From contig NZ_JAUSVK010000001.1 in assembly GCF_030814655.1 (NCBI RefSeq), forward strand, positions 2,127,501-2,191,500: a DNA stretch of 64,000 nt, given 5' to 3'. The DNA is from Labrys monachus. GTDB taxonomy: Bacteria > Pseudomonadota > Alphaproteobacteria > Rhizobiales > Labraceae. Shown here in pieces: positions 17,030-28,065 of the stretch. A program made the translations under genes and the position numbers. The notes below the pieces were generated by a model, which saw only the letters and a list, made by a program, of their open reading frames with translations, was not told the DNA's origin and did no database searches. Every line of letters starts with the position of its first letter. The first letter of the stretch is position 1.

Positions 17030-17815
17030 ATGCCGATCCGCGCTTTGATCTGGAATGAAAACCGCCACGAGCAGAGCAACGCCCTGGTCCGCCAGATCTA
17101 TCCGCAGGGCATCCATGGCGAGATCGCCGCGGCGCTGGGCGAAGCCGGCGGCATCGTCACGCAGACCGCGACGCTGGACGAGCCCGAGCACGGGCTCACC
17201 GAGGAACGGCTCGAAAATACCGATGTTCTCGTCTGGTGGGGGCATACGGCACATGGCGAGGTGAAGGACGAGATCGTCAGGCGGGTGCAGGAGCGGGTCT
17301 GGCAAGGCATGGGCCTCATCGCCCTGCATTCGAGCCATTTTTCGAAGATCTTCCGATCGCTGATGGGCACGCCCTGCGCCCTGTCGTGGCGCGAGGCGGG
17401 GGAGGTCGAGCGAATCTGGGTTCTCAACGGCAATCATCCGATCGCGGCGGGCCTGCCCGAGCATTTCGAGATCGAGCACGAGGAGATGTATGGCGAGCCC
17501 TTCTCGGTGCCGGAACCGCTCGAGACCTTGTTCATCTCCTGGTTCGAGGGCGGCGAGGTCTTCCGCTCGGGCCTGACCTATCAGCGCGGGGCGGGCCGGA
17601 TCTTCTATTTCCGCCCGGGCCATGAAGCCTATCCGACCTACCACGACCCCATCGTCCGCCGGGTTCTCGGCAACGCCGTCAAATGGGCCTGCAACCCGGC
17701 GTCGGCCTGGAAGCGCGTGAACGAAGCCCCCAATGTACCGCACGACAAGGCTCCTGTCCCGCTCGAGGTCAAGGGGCCCCGCCTGCATGCGGACGGCGAG
17801 GAGGGCTACCGGTGA
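17030..17815 (+). CDS. thuA: ThuA family trehalose utilisation protein
   Basis: The 261-residue protein is a clear ThuA-domain protein with a class I glutamine-amidotransferase-like fold: [13 protein letters not shown] at the start, [33 protein letters not shown] and [14 protein letters not shown]. In rhizobia ThuA acts with ThuB in an oxidative, keto-sugar route for imported trehalose and related disaccharides; its exact reaction here is inferred. Length agrees with the family. It is followed by thuB, which starts 31 bp after its stop. Confidence 0.9.
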
Positions 17816-17846
17816 ACGCGTCGGCCGAACGTGCGGAGAAGACACC

Positions 17847-18896
17847 GTGAGCACAGTGCGCATCATGCTGCTCGGCACCGGCAATATGGCCGCCAACCAC
17901 GCCCATCTCATCCGCATGACGCCCGATGCCGAGGTCGTGGCGGGCGTCGACGTCGATGCCCGGCGGGCGCGCAACTTCTCCGACGAGCACGGCATCCCCT
18001 ATGCCTTCGGCGACCTCGACGAGGCGATCGCCTGGGGGAAGTTCGACGCCGTCGCGAACGTGACGCCCGACCAGGCGCATCATCCCACGACCATGAAGCT
18101 GCTCGCGGCGGGCAAGCATGTCTTGTGCGAAAAGCCCCTGGCCGAGACCTTCCCTCTTGCCGACGAAATGGCGCGGGCGGCCGAGAAGGCCGGGCTCGTC
18201 AACATGGTCAATCTCTCCTATCGGGATGTGCCGGCGCTGCAGACGGCGCAGATCATGATCGCCCGCGGCGAGATCGGCGAAGTCCGCCATATCGAGGCGT
18301 CCTATCGGCAGAGCTGGCTGGTGGGCAACCATTGGGGCGATTGGCGTACCGAGCCGCGCTGGCTGTGGCGCCTGTCAGAGAAGCACGGATCCAAGGGGGT
18401 GCTCGGCGATATCGGCATCCATATCCTCGACTTCGCCAGCTATGCCGTCGGCATGACGCCGGTCGCGGTGCAGGCCCAGCTCGCAACCTTCAGCAAGGCG
18501 CCGGGCAACCAGATCGGCGAATATTCGATCGACGCCAACGACAGCGCCGTCATGTCCGTGCGCTTCGAGAACGGCGCGCTCGGCGTGATCCATGCGAGCC
18601 GCTTCATGACCGGCTACGCCAACACCCTGAAGCTCGCCGTCTTCGGGACCACGGGCGCCATCGAGCTGAGCCATGGCCAGTACACCAGCCTGCGCATCTG
18701 CTCGGGCGACGGCGTGCACAACCAGGCGTGGCGGGACCTCGCAACCGAGCCGGTGAAGACCAATTACCAGCGCTTCGTGGCGGCGATAGAAAGCGGGAAA
18801 ACGGCCGAGCCGAGCTTCCGGCACGCCGCCAATCTGCAGCGCGTGATCGATCGCTGCTACGACATGGATGCGGCCGCCGCCCCGCAGATCGCGTGA
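17847..18896 (+). CDS. thuB: Gfo/Idh/MocA oxidoreductase, ThuB-like
   Basis: A 349-residue NAD(P)-dependent sugar dehydrogenase. The N-terminal Rossmann fold shows IMLLGTGNMAANHAHLI, and the family's EKPLA motif (HVLCEKPLAETFPLADEMA) lies near residue 95. The C-terminal GFO_IDH_MocA beta-sheet domain includes GVLGDIGIHILDFASY. The GTG at 17847 is preferred because it starts just before the nucleotide-binding strand; the upstream in-frame extension overlaps thuA and is not protein-like. In rhizobia ThuB is linked to oxidation of trehalose to its 3-keto form; that role is inferred from the adjacent thuA. Confidence 0.86.
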   Translation: MSTVRIMLLGTGNMAANHAHLIRMTPDAEVVAGVDVDARRARNFSDEHGIPYAFGDLDEAIAWGKFDAVANVTPDQAHHPTTMKLLAAGKHVLCEKPLAETFPLADEMARAAEKAGLVNMVNLSYRDVPALQTAQIMIARGEIGEVRHIEASYRQSWLVGNHWGDWRTEPRWLWRLSEKHGSKGVLGDIGIHILDFASYAVGMTPVAVQAQLATFSKAPGNQIGEYSIDANDSAVMSVRFENGALGVIHASRFMTGYANTLKLAVFGTTGAIELSHGQYTSLRICSGDGVHNQAWRDLATEPVKTNYQRFVAAIESGKTAEPSFRHAANLQRVIDRCYDMDAAAAPQIA

Positions 18897-19025
18897 AGCC
18901 ATCTTCGGGAGGGCTTCGGCGGGAAAGATCGACCGCCGCCATGCGTGCCGGATGCGCAGCAGCGCGAGCGGGGCGGGCGTCAACGCAGATTTGATCGGCC
19001 CGCCCGCGGATCGGCGAAAGCGCTC

Positions 19026-19091
19026 TTGACAGGGCTTCGCAAGAAATGGAATGATAATTCCAATTAATAACAAAAAAGGTTGAATCATTCC
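19026..19091 (+). promoter_or_regulatory. putative promoter with IolR-type operators
   Basis: A consensus -35 (TTGACA, 19026-19031) is followed by a perfect inverted repeat TGGAATGATAATTCCA at 19047-19062, which contains GGAA-N6-TTCC at 19048-19061. A second, imperfect copy (GGTTGAATCATTCC, 19078-19091) shares the GGAATGAT core in inverse orientation. The centres are exactly 30 bp apart, about three helical turns. GGAA-N6-TTCC is the motif reported for the RpiR-type repressor IolR of Sinorhizobium inositol catabolism, and the genes downstream are inositol-like. Confidence 0.7.
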
Positions 19092-19159
19092 ATTTAATGG
19101 ATGAGGTGATCTGCGGTCGAGCGTTCGGAACGCTTGGTTGGACGGGAAGGAAGCTGCCG

Positions 19160-19987
19160 ATGGACAGGGGAGCCGTGCATTTCGCGCTCAATCACATCAT
19201 TGCGCCAGGATTGCCGCTGCCTGCTTTCTTCGCCGGTGCCAGGGAGCTGGAAATCGCCTGCGTGGAGATCCGCAACGACCTGCCGGGCAATGCCATCCTC
19301 GACGGCACACCGGCTGCCGAGATCCGCGCCGAGGCTGAACGCGCCGGCGTCGCGATCCTCTCGGTCAATGCCCTGCAGCGCTTCAACGACTGGTCGCCCG
19401 CCCGGGAAAGCGAGGCGGCCGAGCTTGCCGATTATGCCGTGCAATGCGGGGCGCAGGCCCTGGTCCTGGTTCCCGGCAACGATGGCGGCGGGCGGGGCGA
19501 TCATGAGCGGCTGACCAATCTGACCACGGCCTTGCGGGCCCTCAAGCCCCTGTTGCGGGCCCGGGGCCTGATCGGCCTCGTCGAGCCGCTGGGGTTCGAG
19601 ACCTCGTCCTTGCGGCGCAAGTCGGAGGCGGTGGCGGGAATCGACGCCGTGGACGGAGCCGATGTCTTCCGGCTCGTTCACGACACGTTTCACCATCACC
19701 TGGCCGGCGAGGATGCCTTGTTTCCGGAGCGGACGGGCCTCGTCCATATTTCCGGCGTCGAGGACGACATCGCCCCCGGCGACATGCGCGACAGCCATCG
19801 CGTGCTGGTGGGCGAAGGCGATCGGCTCGGCAACGTCGCTCAGATTCGGGCTTTGCTCGCCGGCGGTTACGAAGGCACGCTGTCTTTCGAGCCTTTCGCG
19901 GACAGCGTGCACCGCCTCTCAGAGTCGGAACTCCGCGACGGTGTCGAGAAGAGTATGAAGCTGGTCGTCAGCGGCGTACGTGCTTAG
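19160..19987 (+). CDS. iolI: 2-keto-myo-inositol isomerase-like TIM-barrel protein
   Basis: A 275-residue xylose-isomerase-like TIM barrel resembling IolI in length and motifs: CVEIRNDLPG early, ILSVNALQRFNDW, the metal-site Glu in GLVEPLGFETSS, HDTFHHHLAGED, HISGVED and SFEPFADSVH. The expected reaction is isomerisation of 2-keto-myo-inositol in inositol catabolism. The start at 19160 is chosen because GGAAGGAAG lies 7 nt upstream; an earlier ATG at 19097 lies just beyond the second operator copy. It is the first gene of the operon with the inositol-type ABC transporter. Other sugar isomerase or epimerase roles remain possible. Confidence 0.7.
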   Translation: MDRGAVHFALNHIIAPGLPLPAFFAGARELEIACVEIRNDLPGNAILDGTPAAEIRAEAERAGVAILSVNALQRFNDWSPARESEAAELADYAVQCGAQALVLVPGNDGGGRGDHERLTNLTTALRALKPLLRARGLIGLVEPLGFETSSLRRKSEAVAGIDAVDGADVFRLVHDTFHHHLAGEDALFPERTGLVHISGVEDDIAPGDMRDSHRVLVGEGDRLGNVAQIRALLAGGYEGTLSFEPFADSVHRLSESELRDGVEKSMKLVVSGVRA

Positions 19988-20090: not shown

Positions 20091-21020
20091 ATGAAACATA
20101 CCCTTATGGCGCTGGCCGTGACCGCTCTCATGGGCGGGACTGCCTATGCGGAGAATATCGGCGTCAGCATGGACAGGTTCGACGACAACTTCCTGACCGT
20201 GCTGCGCAACGGCATGAGCGATTATGCCAAGACGAAGCCGGGCCTCAACCTCCAGATCGAGGATGCCCAGAACGACATCGGCAAGCAGCTGAGCCAGATC
20301 CAGAACTTCATCGCTCAGAAGGTCGACGCCATCATCGTCAATCCCGTCGATACCGACGCCACGCCCCAGATGACCAAGCTCGCCTCCGAGGCCGGCGTTC
20401 CCCTCGTCTTCGTCAACCGCATGCCGTCCGATGCCAAGCTGCCCGACAAGGTCGCCTTCGTCGGCTCGAACGAGGTGGATTCGGGCACGCTGGAGATGAA
20501 GGAAGTCTGCAAGCTCCTCGGCGGCAAGGGGGACATCGTCGTCATCATGGGCGAATTGTCCAACCAGTCGGCCCGCCAGCGTACGCAGGACGTCGACGAC
20601 GTCATTGCCAAGGCGCCCTGCACCGGCATCAAGATCCTGCAGAAGCAGACGGCCAACTGGGACCGTACGCAGGGCATCGACCTGATGACGAACTGGATCA
20701 CCGCCGGCATCAAGCCCGCCGCCGTCGTCTCCAACAACGACGAAATGGCGATCGGCGCGATCCAGGCCCTCAAGCAGGTCGGCCTCGCCGGCGGCAAGAC
20801 CATCGTCGCCGGGGTGGACGCGACGCAGGACGGTCTCGCCGCGATGAAGGACGGCGACCTTCAGGTCACCGTGTTCCAGAACGCCAAGGGCCAGGGCGAG
20901 GGGGCCATCGATACGGCTCTCAAGCTCGCCAAGGGCGAGAAGATCGCCGATCCCATGGTGTGGGTGCCGTTCGAACTGGTCACGCCCGCCAACATGGACA
21001 ATTATCTGAAGAAGAACTGA
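20091..21020 (+). CDS. ibpA: inositol/rhizopine-type ABC transporter substrate-binding protein
   Basis: A 309-residue periplasmic-binding protein of the ribose/RbsB fold (Peripla_BP_4). The signal peptide [20 protein letters not shown] precedes [18 protein letters not shown]. Ligand-cleft features include [35 protein letters not shown] and [17 protein letters not shown]. The start at 20091 has an AGGAGGAACAG ribosome site; the open frame extends 11 codons upstream without one. The match to inositol or rhizopine binders, the IolR-like operator and the iolI-like gene point to myo-inositol, but ribose or another sugar is not excluded. Confidence 0.75.
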
Positions 21021-21138: not shown

Positions 21139-22671
21139 ATGGCCGGTTCGCAGGCAAGCGTCGAGACCGCCGGCTCCGGCGGGCGCCTGGGCTACCTCAT
21201 CGAGGCCGAAGGCATCCGCAAGGGCTTCCCCGGCGTCCTTGCCCTCGACGACGTCTCGTTCCGGCTGCGGCCGGGAACCGTCCATGCCCTGATGGGCGAG
21301 AACGGCGCGGGCAAGTCGACGCTCATGAAGATCATCGCGGGCGTCTATCAGCCGGATGGCGGCGTGATGCGCCTGCGCGGCGAGGAGGTGCATTTCGCCG
21401 GGCCGCTCGATGCGCTGCGGCATGGCGTTGCCATGATCCACCAGGAATTGAACCTGATGCCGTTCATGACGGTGGCGGAAAATGTCTGGATCCGCCGCGA
21501 ACCGCTGACCCGGCTCGGTTTCGTGGACCATGCCGAGCTCAACCGGCGCACCGCCCGGCTCTTCGGCCAGCTGAACATCGGCATCGATCCAGCCGTGCAG
21601 GTCGGTTCGCTCAGCGTGGCCAACCGGCAGATGGTGGAGATCGCCAAGGCGGTCTCCTACGATTCCGACGTGCTGATCATGGATGAGCCGACCTCGGCGC
21701 TCACGGAGACCGAGGTCCTGCATCTCTTCGGCATCATTCGCGACCTCAAGGCGGCGGGCAAGGGGATCGTCTACATCACCCACAAGATGAGCGAGTTGTT
21801 CGAGATCGCGGACGAGGTTTCGATATTCCGGGACGGCAAATATGTCGGCACCGATCTCGCCGGCAATCTGACGCGTGACGAGATCATCCGCCGGATGGTG
21901 GGGCGGGAAATCACCCAGATGTTCCCGAAGGAGGCGGTGCCGATCGGCGACATCGTCCTGTCGGTGCACAACCTCACTTTGGACGGCGTCTTCGCGGATG
22001 TCTCCTTCGACCTGCACGAAGGCGAGATCCTTGGTTTCGCCGGGCTGGTCGGTGCAGGCCGCTCCAATGTCGCCGAGACGCTGTTCGGGGTGACGCCGGC
22101 GAGCAGCGGACGGATCGAGATCAGGGGCGAGCCCGTCGCCATGACCTCGCCGGGCGTCGCCATGCGGCACGGCGTGGCGTTCCTGACCGAGGACCGCAAG
22201 GATACCGGCTGCTTCCTCGTCCTGAACGTGCTCGAGAACATGCAGATGGCGGTGCTGACGCAGCGCTATGTCAGGGCCGGATTCGTCACCGCCGGCGATT
22301 TGGGCGCCGCCTGCGAGCAGATGAGCGCCGCCCTGCGGGTGAAGACGCCCGACATGCACGAGCGTATCGAGAATCTCTCCGGCGGCAACCAGCAGAAGGT
22401 GCTGATCGGGCGATGGCTGCTGACGAAGCCCCGCATCCTCATCCTCGACGAGCCGACCCGCGGCATCGACGTCGGCGCCAAGGCCGAGATCCATCGCCTC
22501 ATCTCCAGGCTGGCGGGCGACGGCGTGGCGGTGATCATGATCTCATCCGAGCTGCCCGAAGTCCTCGGCATGAGCGATCGCATCCTGGTTATGCATGCCG
22601 GGCGCGTCACGGGCATTCTCGACCGCGCCGAGGCCGACCAGGTTCGCATCATGGAATTGGCGGCCCGCTGA
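21139..22671 (+). CDS. iatA: inositol-type sugar ABC transporter ATP-binding protein
   Basis: A 510-residue double ATPase of the RbsA/MglA type. The first domain has Walker [10 protein letters not shown] near residue 55, the variant signature [15 protein letters not shown] and Walker [14 protein letters not shown]. The second has a degenerate P-loop [19 protein letters not shown] and an intact [33 protein letters not shown]. This asymmetry is normal in the family. The ATG at 21139 is used because the upstream open frame is arginine-rich and uninformative. It energises the permease encoded 77 bp downstream. Confidence 0.85.
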
Positions 22672-22748: not shown

Positions 22749-23804
22749 ATGTCAGCCAACGAAGCCGCAGGCCGGTCCCCGGCCGCCCCGGGGAGGCTCG
22801 CGCGGCGGCGCATTCCTCAGGAGATCAGCATCCTCGTCGTGCTCATCGGTATTTCGCTGGTATTCGAGCTGATGGGATGGCCGCTGAAGGGGCAGAGCTT
22901 TCTGCTCAACCTCGACCGCTTGAGCATCATCTTCCTGCAGACGTCGGTCGTCGGCATCATCGCCGTCGGCGTGGCGCAGACCATCATCACCGGCGGCGTC
23001 GACCTCTCGTCGGGATCCGTGGTCGGCGCGACCGCGATGATCGCGGCGAGCTTTGCCCAGGTCGCGACGGCGCGCTCCCTGGTCTATCACGGTCTGGGGG
23101 ATCTGCCCTTTTTCGTTCCGGTGGCGGCTGGCCTGCTCGCCGGGCTCTTCGCCGGCGTCGTCAACGGCGTGCTGATCGCCTATGCGAGCGTGCCGCCCTT
23201 CATCGCCACGCTGGGCATGATGGTCTCCGCGCGCGGGTTCGCCATCTGGTATACCAACGGCTCCCCGGTCAGCACGTTCACGCCGGCGTTCCGCGTCATC
23301 GGTTCTTCGACCAGGCTGTTCGGCGATCTTTCGATCAACTGGCCGATTGCGATCTTCCTCGCCGTCGCCCTCATTTTCCACATCGCGATGTGCTACACGC
23401 GCTACGGCAAGTTCACCTATGCCATCGGCTCGAACATGCAGGCGGCGCGGGTTTCCGGCATCGATGTGCGGCGCCATCTCGTCAAGGTCTACGGAATCGC
23501 CGGGCTCCTGTCGGGGCTTGCCGCCGTCGTCATGATCGCACGCGGCGATTCCGCCCAGTCCGGCATGGGGCTGGGATATGAGCTGCAGGCGATCGCCGCC
23601 GTCGTCATCGGGGGGACGTCCCTGTCCGGCGGCGTCGGGCGGATCACCAGTACCGTGATCGGCCTCCTGATCCTGAGCGTGGTGCAGTCCGGCTTCACCT
23701 TTCTCGGCGTGCAGGCCTCGCTTCAGCAGATCGTCCTCGGCGCCATCATCGTCACTGCGGTCGTCATCGACCAGTATCGCCGCAACCGGCGCCGCAAACC
23801 CTGA
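22749..23804 (+). CDS. iatP: inositol-type sugar ABC transporter permease
   Basis: A 351-residue RbsC-type permease (BPD_transp_2) with eight to ten hydrophobic segments. Landmarks are GGVDLSSGSVVGATAMIAAS, PPFIATLGMMVSARGFAIWY, YAIGSNMQAARVSGIDVRRH and GYELQAIAAVVIGGTSLSGG. The start at 22749 has GGAGGAAGCG 1 nt before it and skips a long low-quality upstream extension that overlaps iatA. Last gene of the iolI-ibpA-iatA-iatP run. Substrate assignment rests on the operon. Confidence 0.85.
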   Translation: MSANEAAGRSPAAPGRLARRRIPQEISILVVLIGISLVFELMGWPLKGQSFLLNLDRLSIIFLQTSVVGIIAVGVAQTIITGGVDLSSGSVVGATAMIAASFAQVATARSLVYHGLGDLPFFVPVAAGLLAGLFAGVVNGVLIAYASVPPFIATLGMMVSARGFAIWYTNGSPVSTFTPAFRVIGSSTRLFGDLSINWPIAIFLAVALIFHIAMCYTRYGKFTYAIGSNMQAARVSGIDVRRHLVKVYGIAGLLSGLAAVVMIARGDSAQSGMGLGYELQAIAAVVIGGTSLSGGVGRITSTVIGLLILSVVQSGFTFLGVQASLQQIVLGAIIVTAVVIDQYRRNRRRKP

Positions 23805-24691: not shown

Positions 24692-25249
24692 ATGGAAGTT
24701 GAAAGATTAGCGCTCGCGGGCCTCGTGCGCCTCGTGCCTCCGCGCCTCGGCGACGAGCGGGGATTTTTTTCCGAGACCTTCAACGCCGCCAGGTTCCGGC
24801 AGGCCGCTGGCACGGACACCGTCTTCGTCCAGGACAATCAATCCCTGTCGCGGCAGGCCGGGGTCCTGCGCGGCCTGCACGGGCAGCGGGCGCCCTTCGC
24901 CCAGGCCAAGCTGGTGCGCGTCACCCGCGGCCGCATCTTTGACGTGGCCGTCGATGTCCGGCGCGCCTCGCCCACCTACGGGCGCTGGGCCGCGACGGAG
25001 CTGAGCGCGGAGAACTGGGCCCAATTGTTCATCCCGGCCGGTTTCCTGCACGGTTTCTATACTCTCGAGCCCGAAACCGAAGTGCAGTACAAGGTCGATG
25101 CGCATTATGCGGCGGATCACGAGATCGGCGTGGTCTGGAACGATCCGGAACTCGGCATCGCCTGGCCGCTCGAAGGCGGCAGTCCGCTCCTGTCCGACAA
25201 GGATCGCGGGCTGCCGACATTTGCCGATTTCAACGCCTCGTTTGCTTGA
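24692..25249 (+). CDS. rfbC: dTDP-4-dehydrorhamnose 3,5-epimerase
   Basis: A 185-residue cupin enzyme (RmlC) for the third step of dTDP-L-rhamnose synthesis. Family motifs are [35 protein letters not shown] with the catalytic His, [40 protein letters not shown] with the catalytic-region Tyr, and a terminal [16 protein letters not shown]. Length is normal. The four rhamnose genes run in order C, B, D, A with short or overlapping junctions. Confidence 0.95.
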
Positions 25250-25271
25250 AGCGAGGGGAGGGCGGGCCGCC

Positions 25272-26345
25272 ATGAAAATCCTAATCACCGGCGGCGCGGG
25301 CTTCATCGGTTCGGCGCTGATCCGCTTCCTCATCGCCCATACCGATGCGCAGGTCGTCAACGTCGATGCCCTGACCTATTCGGCGACGCCCGAGGCATTG
25401 GAAAAGGGCGCCGACTCGGACCGCTACGCCTTCGTCAAGGCGAACATCCGCGATCTCGCCTCGTTGCAGGCCATCTTCACGGAGCACAGGCCGAGCCACG
25501 TGATGCATCTGGCCGCCGAGAGCCACGTCGACCGGTCGATCGACGGCCCCGATGCCTTCATCCAGACCAATCTCGTCGGTACCTTCAATCTCCTGCAGGC
25601 AGCCAGGGACTATTGGTCAGGCCTGCCGGCGGCGTCGCAAGAGGCCTTCCGTTTCCACCATATCACCACCGACGAGGTCTATGGCGCGCTCGGGCCGGGC
25701 GATCCGCCCTTCACGGAAGCCACGCCCTACCATCCGAATTCTCCCTATTCCGCGAGCAAGGCCGGATCCGACCATCTCGTCCGGGCCTGGCACGAGACCT
25801 ATGCCCTTCCGATCCTGGTCTCGTCATGCTCCAACAATTACGGGCTGTGGCAGTTTCCCGAAAAGCTCATCCCGCTGGTGATCGTCGCCGCCCTCGACGG
25901 AAAGCCGCTGCCGGTCTACGGCAAGGGCGAGAACGTGCGCGACTGGCTGCATGTCGAGGACCATGCCAGGGCGCTTTGGACGGTGCTCACGAAGGGAAGA
26001 GTCGGCGAGACCTACAATATCGGGGGTGGCGCCGAGCGGAAGAACATCGACGTCGTTCGGGCGATCTGTGCGGTGCTGGACAGGCTCAGGCCGGCAAACG
26101 CGCAGCATGACCATCTCATAACCCATGTCGCCGACCGGCCGGGACATGATTTCCGCTACGCCATCGACGCCTCGAAGATCCGACGGGAACTGGGCTGGGA
26201 GCCGCTGGAGACCTTCGACAGCGGACTGGAGCGCACAGTAAGGTGGTATATCGAGTACGAGGCATGGTGGCGCGGCGTGCAGCGAAACAAGTATGATGGA
26301 CGGCGTATCGGCGAGGGGCAGGGCCAGTCGTGCGCATTGCAGTGA
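25272..26345 (+). CDS. rfbB: dTDP-glucose 4,6-dehydratase
   Basis: A 357-residue extended short-chain dehydrogenase (RmlB), step two of dTDP-L-rhamnose synthesis. The NAD-binding motif [14 protein letters not shown] is at the N-terminus, the active-site TTDEVYG near residue 134, and the catalytic [19 protein letters not shown] near 160. [20 protein letters not shown] is also diagnostic. The start at 25272 begins the Rossmann strand directly. The 3' end overlaps rfbD by 16 bp. Confidence 0.95.
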
Positions 26346-27202
26346 TCGGCGAGCACGGGCAGCTGGCCTCATGCCTGCGCGAACGGGCCGGGCAGGGCTG
26401 GCGCTTCCTCGGCCGCGATATCATCGATCTGGCATGTGCGGCCGATTTCGATCGGATCCTCGACCGGGAAGCGCCTGATGTGCTGGTCAATGCCGCAGCC
26501 TATACGGCCGTCGACAAGGCGGAGACCGAACCGGAACGGGCGTTCGCCGTGAACGAGGCCGCACCGGGCGCCCTGGCCCGCTGGTGCGCGAGGAACCGCG
26601 TCGCCTTTCTTCATGTCTCGACCGACTATGTCTTCGACGGTGCCGGCGACGGGCCGTGGCGGGAAGACGACGAAGCGCGCCCGCTCAACGTCTACGGTGC
26701 CAGTAAACTGGCGGGAGAGCGTGCCGTGCTGGAAAGCGGGGCGAGGGCGCTCATCTTGCGGACCGCCTGGGTCCACAGCTCCTATGGCAGGAATTTCGTC
26801 AAGACCGTGCTACGCCTGGCCCTGGAGCGTGACCGGATCGACATCGTCGCCGACCAGTCGGGCGGCCCGACATCGGCGCAGGATCTGGCCGATGGCTGCG
26901 CCGCTCTCCTGCCCTTGCTGCATGAAGGCCGGATCGAGGGCCTGCATCATTGCGGGGGCGCCGGTGCGACGACCTGGGCCGACTTCGCGCAGGCGATCTT
27001 CGAAGAAGCGCTGCAGCGTGGATTCATCCCGCGCGTGCCGGCGATCATGCGGGTGCGCTCCGCCGATTACCCGACGCCGGCCCGCCGCCCGCTGAATTCC
27101 CGCCTCTCATGCGACAGGCTGCTGGGGAAGAGCGGCGTCGCGATGCCGGGATGGCGGCTCGGCCTGCGGCGCACGCTGGATGCAATGGAGAAGACATCGT
27201 GA
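26330..27202 (+). CDS. rfbD: dTDP-4-dehydrorhamnose reductase
   Basis: A 290-residue NAD(P)H-dependent reductase (RmlD), the final step of dTDP-L-rhamnose synthesis. It shows [47 protein letters not shown] and the catalytic [16 protein letters not shown] start at 26330 inside the rfbB end gives the correct N-terminus. The stop overlaps the GTG of rfbA in GTGA (27199-27202), implying coupled translation. Confidence 0.94.
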
Positions 27203-28065
27203 AGGGCATCATTCTCGCCGGTGGTTCCGGGACGAGGCTCTACCCCCTGACGCTGGCGGTCTCCAAGCAGATGCTGCCCGTCTACAACAAGCCGATGATC
27301 TATTACCCGCTTTCCGTGCTGATGCTGGCGGGGATTCGCGACATTCTGGTGATCTCGACGCCGCGGGATCTGCCGCAGTTCGAGGCTCTGCTGGGCGATG
27401 GCGGCCAATGGGGCCTGTCGTTGCAATATGCCGCGCAGCCCAGTCCCGACGGATTGGCGCAGGCCTTCGTCATCGGGCGCCGGTTTGTGGGAGCCGATAC
27501 CGTGGCTCTCGTTCTCGGCGACAACATCTTCTACGGCCATGGGCTGTCGGACATGGTCGCGAAGGCGGCCGGCCGGACGAGGGGAGCGACGGTCTTCGGT
27601 TATCAGGTGGCCGATCCCGAACGGTATGGCGTCGTCGCGTTCGATGACGCGGGACGAGCCATCGACATCGAGGAGAAGCCGGCCCGGCCGAAATCCAGCT
27701 TCGCCGTGACGGGGCTCTATTTCTACGACAATGACGTGCTTGATATCGCGGCGCAGCTGCTGCCCTCGCCGCGCGGGGAACTCGAGATTACCGACGTCAA
27801 CAGGGCCTACCTCCGGCGGGGCGACCTGCAGGTGGAACGGATGGGCCGGGGCTTTGCCTGGCTCGACACCGGCACGCATGAATCGTTGATCCAGGCCGGA
27901 CATTTCGTCCAGACGCTGGAGACGCGCCAGGGCATCCAGCTCGCCTGCCTCGAAGAGATCGCTCTCTCGCTCGGATATATCGGCCCGGAGGACGTGCGGG
28001 CGGCCGTCCGCCGTTTGGGGCGAGGCAGCTACAGCGAGTATCTCCGGCGGATGGTCGGGGATTGA
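27199..28065 (+). CDS. rfbA: glucose-1-phosphate thymidylyltransferase
   Basis: A 288-residue nucleotidyltransferase (RmlA) that makes dTDP-glucose, the entry step of the pathway, and is usually feedback-inhibited by dTDP-rhamnose. Motifs: [67 protein letters not shown]-like [12 protein letters not shown] and [11 protein letters not shown]. The GTG at 27199 gives the conserved MKGIILAGG start. It ends only 5 bp from the end of the convergent minus-strand gene, leaving no room for a terminator between the operons. Confidence 0.95.

Follow-up and report, generated by a model that had tools for sequence, protein, structure and literature searches.

A promoter in a 64,000-nucleotide stretch of Labrys monachus DNA, hereafter the window, carries a palindrome over its likely -10 element and stands directly before four genes of a sugar transport type. 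Which regulator reads this palindrome, and from where in the genome does it act? Our analysis of the window, of the genome that holds it and of the corresponding loci in relatives points with high confidence to the promoter and operator of an operon for the uptake of inositol, a sugar alcohol of plants. The operon would be repressed by a distant IolR, acting through the palindrome and probably also through a weak second copy of it.

A palindrome overlaps the likely promoter of a putative inositol uptake operon

The only promoter-like match on the forward strand between positions 18890 and 23900 consists of the -35 element TTGACA (19026–19031), an 18-nt spacer and the likely -10 element AATGAT (19050–19055), which is a consensus match only and has TG just before it. 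Operator 1 (TGGAATGATAATTCCA, 19047–19062, no strand being assigned to it or to its copy) is a perfect IolR-type GGAA-N6-TTCC palindrome with the core letters GGAATGATAATTCC at 19048–19061 and the six centre bases TGATAA. Because the sole promoter-like match has its AATGAT at 19050–19055, the palindrome covers the likely -10 element; the letters and the promoter match thus agree with the preliminary description of this DNA, which had placed a perfect palindrome over the expected -10 region after TTGACA. The same description had reported an imperfect copy 30 bp further on. Operator 2 (AGGTTGAATCATTCCA, 19077–19092; core letters GGTTGAATCATTCC at 19078–19091) does lie at exactly that spacing, but the copy is weak: it has one good half, ATTCCA, matches six of the eight GGAA/TTCC bases and differs from the TGGAA/TTCCA form at three of ten positions.

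Four genes on the forward strand follow. They encode a TIM-barrel protein (AP_endonuc_2; 19160–19987), a sugar-binding protein of the CUT2 type (20091–21020), an ABC ATP-binding protein (21139–22671) and an ABC permease (22749–23804), and are orthologous to SMb20711 (putative inosose isomerase), SMb20712 (IbpA), SMb20713 (IatA) and SMb20714 (IatP) of Sinorhizobium meliloti, respectively. Gene by gene, identity to the S. meliloti pSymB operon is 60, 64, 73 and 61%, and the order is identical, as judged from the annotated strain Ak57. The best solved relative of the window binding protein is 4yo7, which we take to be a complex with myo-inositol; among the literature matches listed for its ligand, no paper names 4yo7. 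We equated the pSymB locus with SMb20711-14 by gene order and by PMC3454389, the strain 1021 record being without a gene table. In the part of PMC3454389 on which we draw, SMb20712-14 are described as an ABC operon with the putative inosose isomerase gene SMb20711 ahead of it, and SMb20712 binds myo-inositol with a Kd of 0.47 micromolar; a Tn5 insertion in SMb20712 (ibpA) abolishes growth of S. meliloti on myo-inositol, according to the portion of PMC2597717 used here. The window operon is a putative inositol uptake operon orthologous to SMb20711-20714, and the inositol role first given to the four genes agrees with this orthology to a myo-inositol uptake operon.

In the 80 loci that we compared (the best 80 of at least 538 relatives), 46 have the four-gene order; downstream of the permease, 18 carry an idhA-like gene and 4 carry iolC too. 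Close relatives of the TIM-barrel gene are found outside Alphaproteobacteria as well, in Thiolinea (L141), together with the LacI gene described below, and in a Paraburkholderia bin (L201), together with the transporter; horizontal spread is possible. Further along the window, at 24692–28065, four genes resemble, by eye, those of dTDP-rhamnose synthesis, presumably RmlC, B, D and A.

Extended matrices single out the palindrome where its core does not

The palindrome core had been offered in support of the inositol assignment, and by itself it does not suffice. Bare GGAA-N6-TTCC occurs twice in the window against a mean of 0.99 over 100 shuffles, 27 of which held two or more, a frequency within chance, and it is found at 152 places genome-wide. 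With no excess in the window and so many places in the genome, we dropped the exact core as stand-alone evidence.

We scored sites with two extended matrices. The main one, symmetric and 22 bp long, was built from 20 distinct sites from other families: sites with at most one mismatch at a distance of 35–120 bp upstream of the matched first gene in the 80 loci, together with six S. meliloti and Aureimonas sites. One Rhizobium training site (L149) is doubtful, and its omission changes little. We take the training genomes to be from other families, since each belongs to a large genus and the family of the window comprises no more than five genomes. The scored DNA comprised 365,219 positions, about 5% of the window genome; the background stretches were partly picked by motif search, which disfavours the first site, and a few of them overlap.

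With the main matrix operator 1 reached 32.4 bits and ranked first of the 365,219 positions, a score that was unequalled in 3 Mb of random sequence and that none of 200,000 sequences drawn with the base composition of this promoter attained. The sites at the idhA/iolC promoter of the same genome, described below, ranked second and fourth (28.2 and 23.9 bits), and the third-ranked match (C1:3619749, 24.7 bits) falls within a reading frame of an ABC gene cluster of the branched-chain type that has no link to inositol. Operator 2 scored 12.0 bits and ranked eleventh of 365,219, a level that random sequence matches 5.3 times per Mb.

The second matrix, made from only five sites, located at iol promoters of S. 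meliloti and at iolC of Aureimonas, placed the idhA/iolC pair first and second, operator 1 fourth among distinct sites, and dropped operator 2 to rank 79 of 365,219. Third, above operator 1, came the unexplained position G000:C1:1741416 (L092 7417; present in two of the stretches), which matches this iol-gene matrix strongly and sits in AT-rich DNA where clear genes are few. Support for operator 2 comes mainly from its exact spacing, from a probability of about 0.0004 at one given position when the base composition is that of this AT-rich promoter, and from the higher scores (20.1, 17.9 and 17.9 bits) of the place that matches it in congeners.

Across the whole genome the degenerate form TRGAA-N6-TTYCA gives 41 strand matches and its reversed control 23, an excess of only about twofold. 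It occurs at 26 places, all of which we inspected: 21 fall within automatically called ORFs rich in GC3, and no more than two adjoin inositol genes, these being the window's operator 1 and idhA/iolC.

A distant iolR lies in a cluster that carries a twin site

The regulator had been said to lie outside the window, and we located iolR (G000:C1:5438536-5439363), which encodes RpiR HTH and SIS domains, 3.3 Mb away. A search for an RpiR-family iolR near iolCDEB/idhA, as suggested beforehand, found it in one cluster with idhA, iolC, iolD, iolE and iolB, so that the genome has both the regulator and the inositol catabolic genes. Its product shares 43% identity with the RpiR protein whose gene immediately precedes iolCDEB in S. 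meliloti. Identity is 46% to the RpiR protein of Aureimonas AU20, in which iolR-iolC-iolE-iolB and the orthologous transport operon are arranged divergently and the promoter between operon and iolR holds a match of 15.5 bits only. No site with three or fewer mismatches is present in the 337 bp upstream of the Labrys iolR.

The divergent idhA/iolC promoter of the window genome carries TGGCATTTTTGTTCTA and TAGAATATATGTTTCA around TTGACA, each two mismatches away from TGGAA-N6-TTCCA. The two copies lie 30 bp apart, the spacing of the window pair, and one genome thus holds the same kind of motif at the window operator and at the idhA/iolC promoter. Pair and spacing are kept in all five genomes of the family, the copies in the congener G004 reading TGGCATTTTAATTCCA and TAGAATATATGTTTCG, and at the iolC promoter of S. 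meliloti the copies are TAGAATGGAAATTCCA and CGGAATTTATGTTTCA, likewise 30 bp apart.

Including iolR, the window genome has eleven RpiR-family genes. Among the stretches of 10–12 kb around them, a motif of at least 20 bits occurs only in that of iolR, at idhA/iolC. Elsewhere in the genome a second iolB lies beside apparent sugar ABC transporter genes (L015, G000:C1:4998000-5014000), and a second idhA-like gene scores above the NCBIfam cut-off (L102, G000:C1:4086373-4087359); TRGAA-N6-TTYCA is absent from the 16 kb of the former cluster and from 13 kb around the latter gene, and neither locus is represented among the 20 best listed matrix matches.

The predicted operator is conserved in three of four congeners, and their local LacI gene is absent from the window

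Three of the four congeners (G001-G003) conserve operator 1 and the good half of operator 2. They keep the promoter, TAGAATATTAATTCCA and, at +30, AATCATTCYATTT, the ATTCYA half, and in these genomes GGAA is replaced by AGAA; their TTGACA stands one base closer to the operator than in the window. In the fourth congener (G004) the operon is present and no IolR-type site precedes it. The motif also precedes the first gene of the orthologous S. meliloti operon, both in our own scan and in the part of PMC2597717 that we used.

A second candidate regulator is common beside the operon in relatives. A LacI-family gene immediately precedes the operon in 51 of the 80 loci (again the best 80 of at least 538 relatives) and in all four congeners (L031 6020-7042, L032 6150-7172, L033 6264-7286 and L034 5803-6822); the relatives' proteins belong to the LacI family by their domains and are 51–56% identical to the congener protein. 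The palindrome TGATRGAATTCYATCA, in which the GGAA and TTCC halves meet without a gap and which shares the GAAT half with operator 1, is common in these loci. It was read by eye from the relatives' loci and then counted on those very loci, with at most three mismatches and within 360 bp upstream of the first gene, and so counted it occurs in 35 of the 51 loci with an adjacent LacI gene, in 2 of the 5 with a LacI gene further off and in 13 of the 24 without one, against 5 of 1600 shuffled regions. For the same three classes, an IolR-type site of at least 20 bits is present in 3 of 51, 5 of 5 and 14 of 24 loci, and one of at least 10 bits in 12 of 51, 5 of 5 and 14 of 24; close kinship among the 80 loci weights every class, and the Fisher value of 1.6e-8 therefore does not count as a valid test. 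An IolR-type site and TGATRGAATTCYATCA occur together in every one of the 10 Sinorhizobium and 8 Ensifer loci, and because both kinds of site are present, joint control by LacI and IolR is likely in these two genera.

At the window operon the LacI gene is absent, the sole match in the genome at E 1e-30 or better being 36% identical and located elsewhere, and the window promoter (18897–19160) is at least seven mismatches away from TGATRGAATTCYATCA. In G001-G003 the LacI-type palindrome lies at the promoter of the LacI gene itself, with one or two mismatches, whereas the operon promoter is six mismatches from it and holds the IolR-type site. The ThuA-like and Gfo/Idh/MocA genes that precede the window promoter (17030–18896) are 82–87% identical in G001-G003, but the distance from the preceding gene to the operon promoter is about 130 bp in the window versus about 5 kb in these congeners, where the interval includes the LacI gene and others. 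The window genome appears to have lost the local LacI repressor and kept IolR control, which suggests that local control was exchanged for global control at this operon.

Which regulator reads the palindrome

Could the palindrome instead be read by the operon's own LacI-family repressor? The prevalence of such a gene directly upstream in relatives and in every congener, together with the GAAT half that the two palindromes share, would favour this reading, and both proteins may act where Sinorhizobium and Ensifer carry both sites. However, the gapless LacI-type palindrome differs in geometry from operator 1, with its six bases between the halves, and the window promoter holds nothing close to it; the IolR-type site is present in a genome where the LacI gene is absent; in three congeners the two palindromes are parted between two promoters; and the IolR-type motif recurs at idhA/iolC. 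On operator geometry and the absence of the gene we rejected LacI as the reader of operator 1, and consider this reading improbable.

Slightly less probable still is an RpiR-family paralogue other than IolR. The number of such genes in the genome makes one available, and members of this family can have similar operators, but the strong motif was confined to the stretch in which iolR itself lies. That the palindrome arose by chance in an AT-rich promoter is scarcely credible: GGAA-N6-TTCC is indeed expected about once per 64 kb, but the extended score was never reached in composition-matched draws, the site is conserved in three of four congeners, and idhA/iolC repeats the pair at the same spacing. 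We regard the predicted operator 1 as very probably read by IolR.

Discussion

In this study we have traced a predicted operator in the window to a regulator millions of bases away. From the sequence we infer IolR binding, repression, the inducer and the co-operation of two sites at the window operon, and the switch would work as follows. IolR would bind the palindrome over the -10 element and probably also the weak copy, which faces the same side of the helix some three turns further downstream; the bound repressor would thereby block RNA polymerase when inositol is absent. Inositol breakdown would then yield a phosphorylated intermediate that releases IolR (2-deoxy-5-keto-gluconate-6-phosphate in S. 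meliloti, according to the part of PMC8877191 used here, which also cites the study by Kohler et al. of IolR in that species), and the uptake and breakdown genes would be switched on together. The uptake operon would in this way be tied to the inositol regulon despite its distance from the regulator, and the window promoter and the idhA/iolC promoter make a testable pair.

Reading the window site as an operator of the IolR type, conserved and accompanied by a weak second copy, is well supported by the comparisons above, and the switch so predicted is of a known and ordinary kind; its only unusual feature is the absence of the second, local repressor gene that is common beside the operon in relatives. 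We lean, with some reserve, towards a broader picture for Hyphomicrobiales, in which the inositol uptake operon would alternate between a co-located LacI acting through TGATRGAATTCYATCA, a distant IolR acting through GGAA-N6-TTCC, or both. The window genome would represent a derived, IolR-only state in which LacI gene and LacI operator are gone, while its kin keep LacI with (G001-G003) or without (G004) an IolR-type site. We found no published account of such an exchange at an inositol uptake operon in the open literature; seven LacI-family groups for inositol are listed in general terms in PMC4052901, and the exchange is absent from the part of its inositol LacI-family account on which we draw. 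A family of five genomes with one operon in what appear to be three control states would be a small natural experiment on the loss of a local repressor and its replacement by a global one.

Two known systems allow comparison. The preliminary description had equated the motif with that of Sinorhizobium IolR, and this holds in part: S. meliloti is included, but in the part of PMC2597717 that we used the IolR-dependent motif was described in Caulobacter crescentus, at the ibpA, idhA, iolC and iolA promoters, and a motif search then extended it to alphaproteobacteria including S. meliloti. C. crescentus resembles the window genome in having GGAA-N6-TTCC before its inositol transporter and iol genes, doubled at iolC, and an RpiR-family IolR encoded by the iol genes; it differs in its printed consensus, GGAANATNCGTTCCA, as against TGATAA at the centre of operator 1, and in its iolC copies, which lie 59 bp apart by the printed positions as against 30 bp in the window. 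S. meliloti differs in having one motif copy before the transport operon, where the window has a weak second one, and in an upstream LacI-type palindrome (one mismatch) of the kind that the window lacks. It is alike in its four genes and their order, in the motif before the first gene and in an iolC pair spaced at 30 bp.
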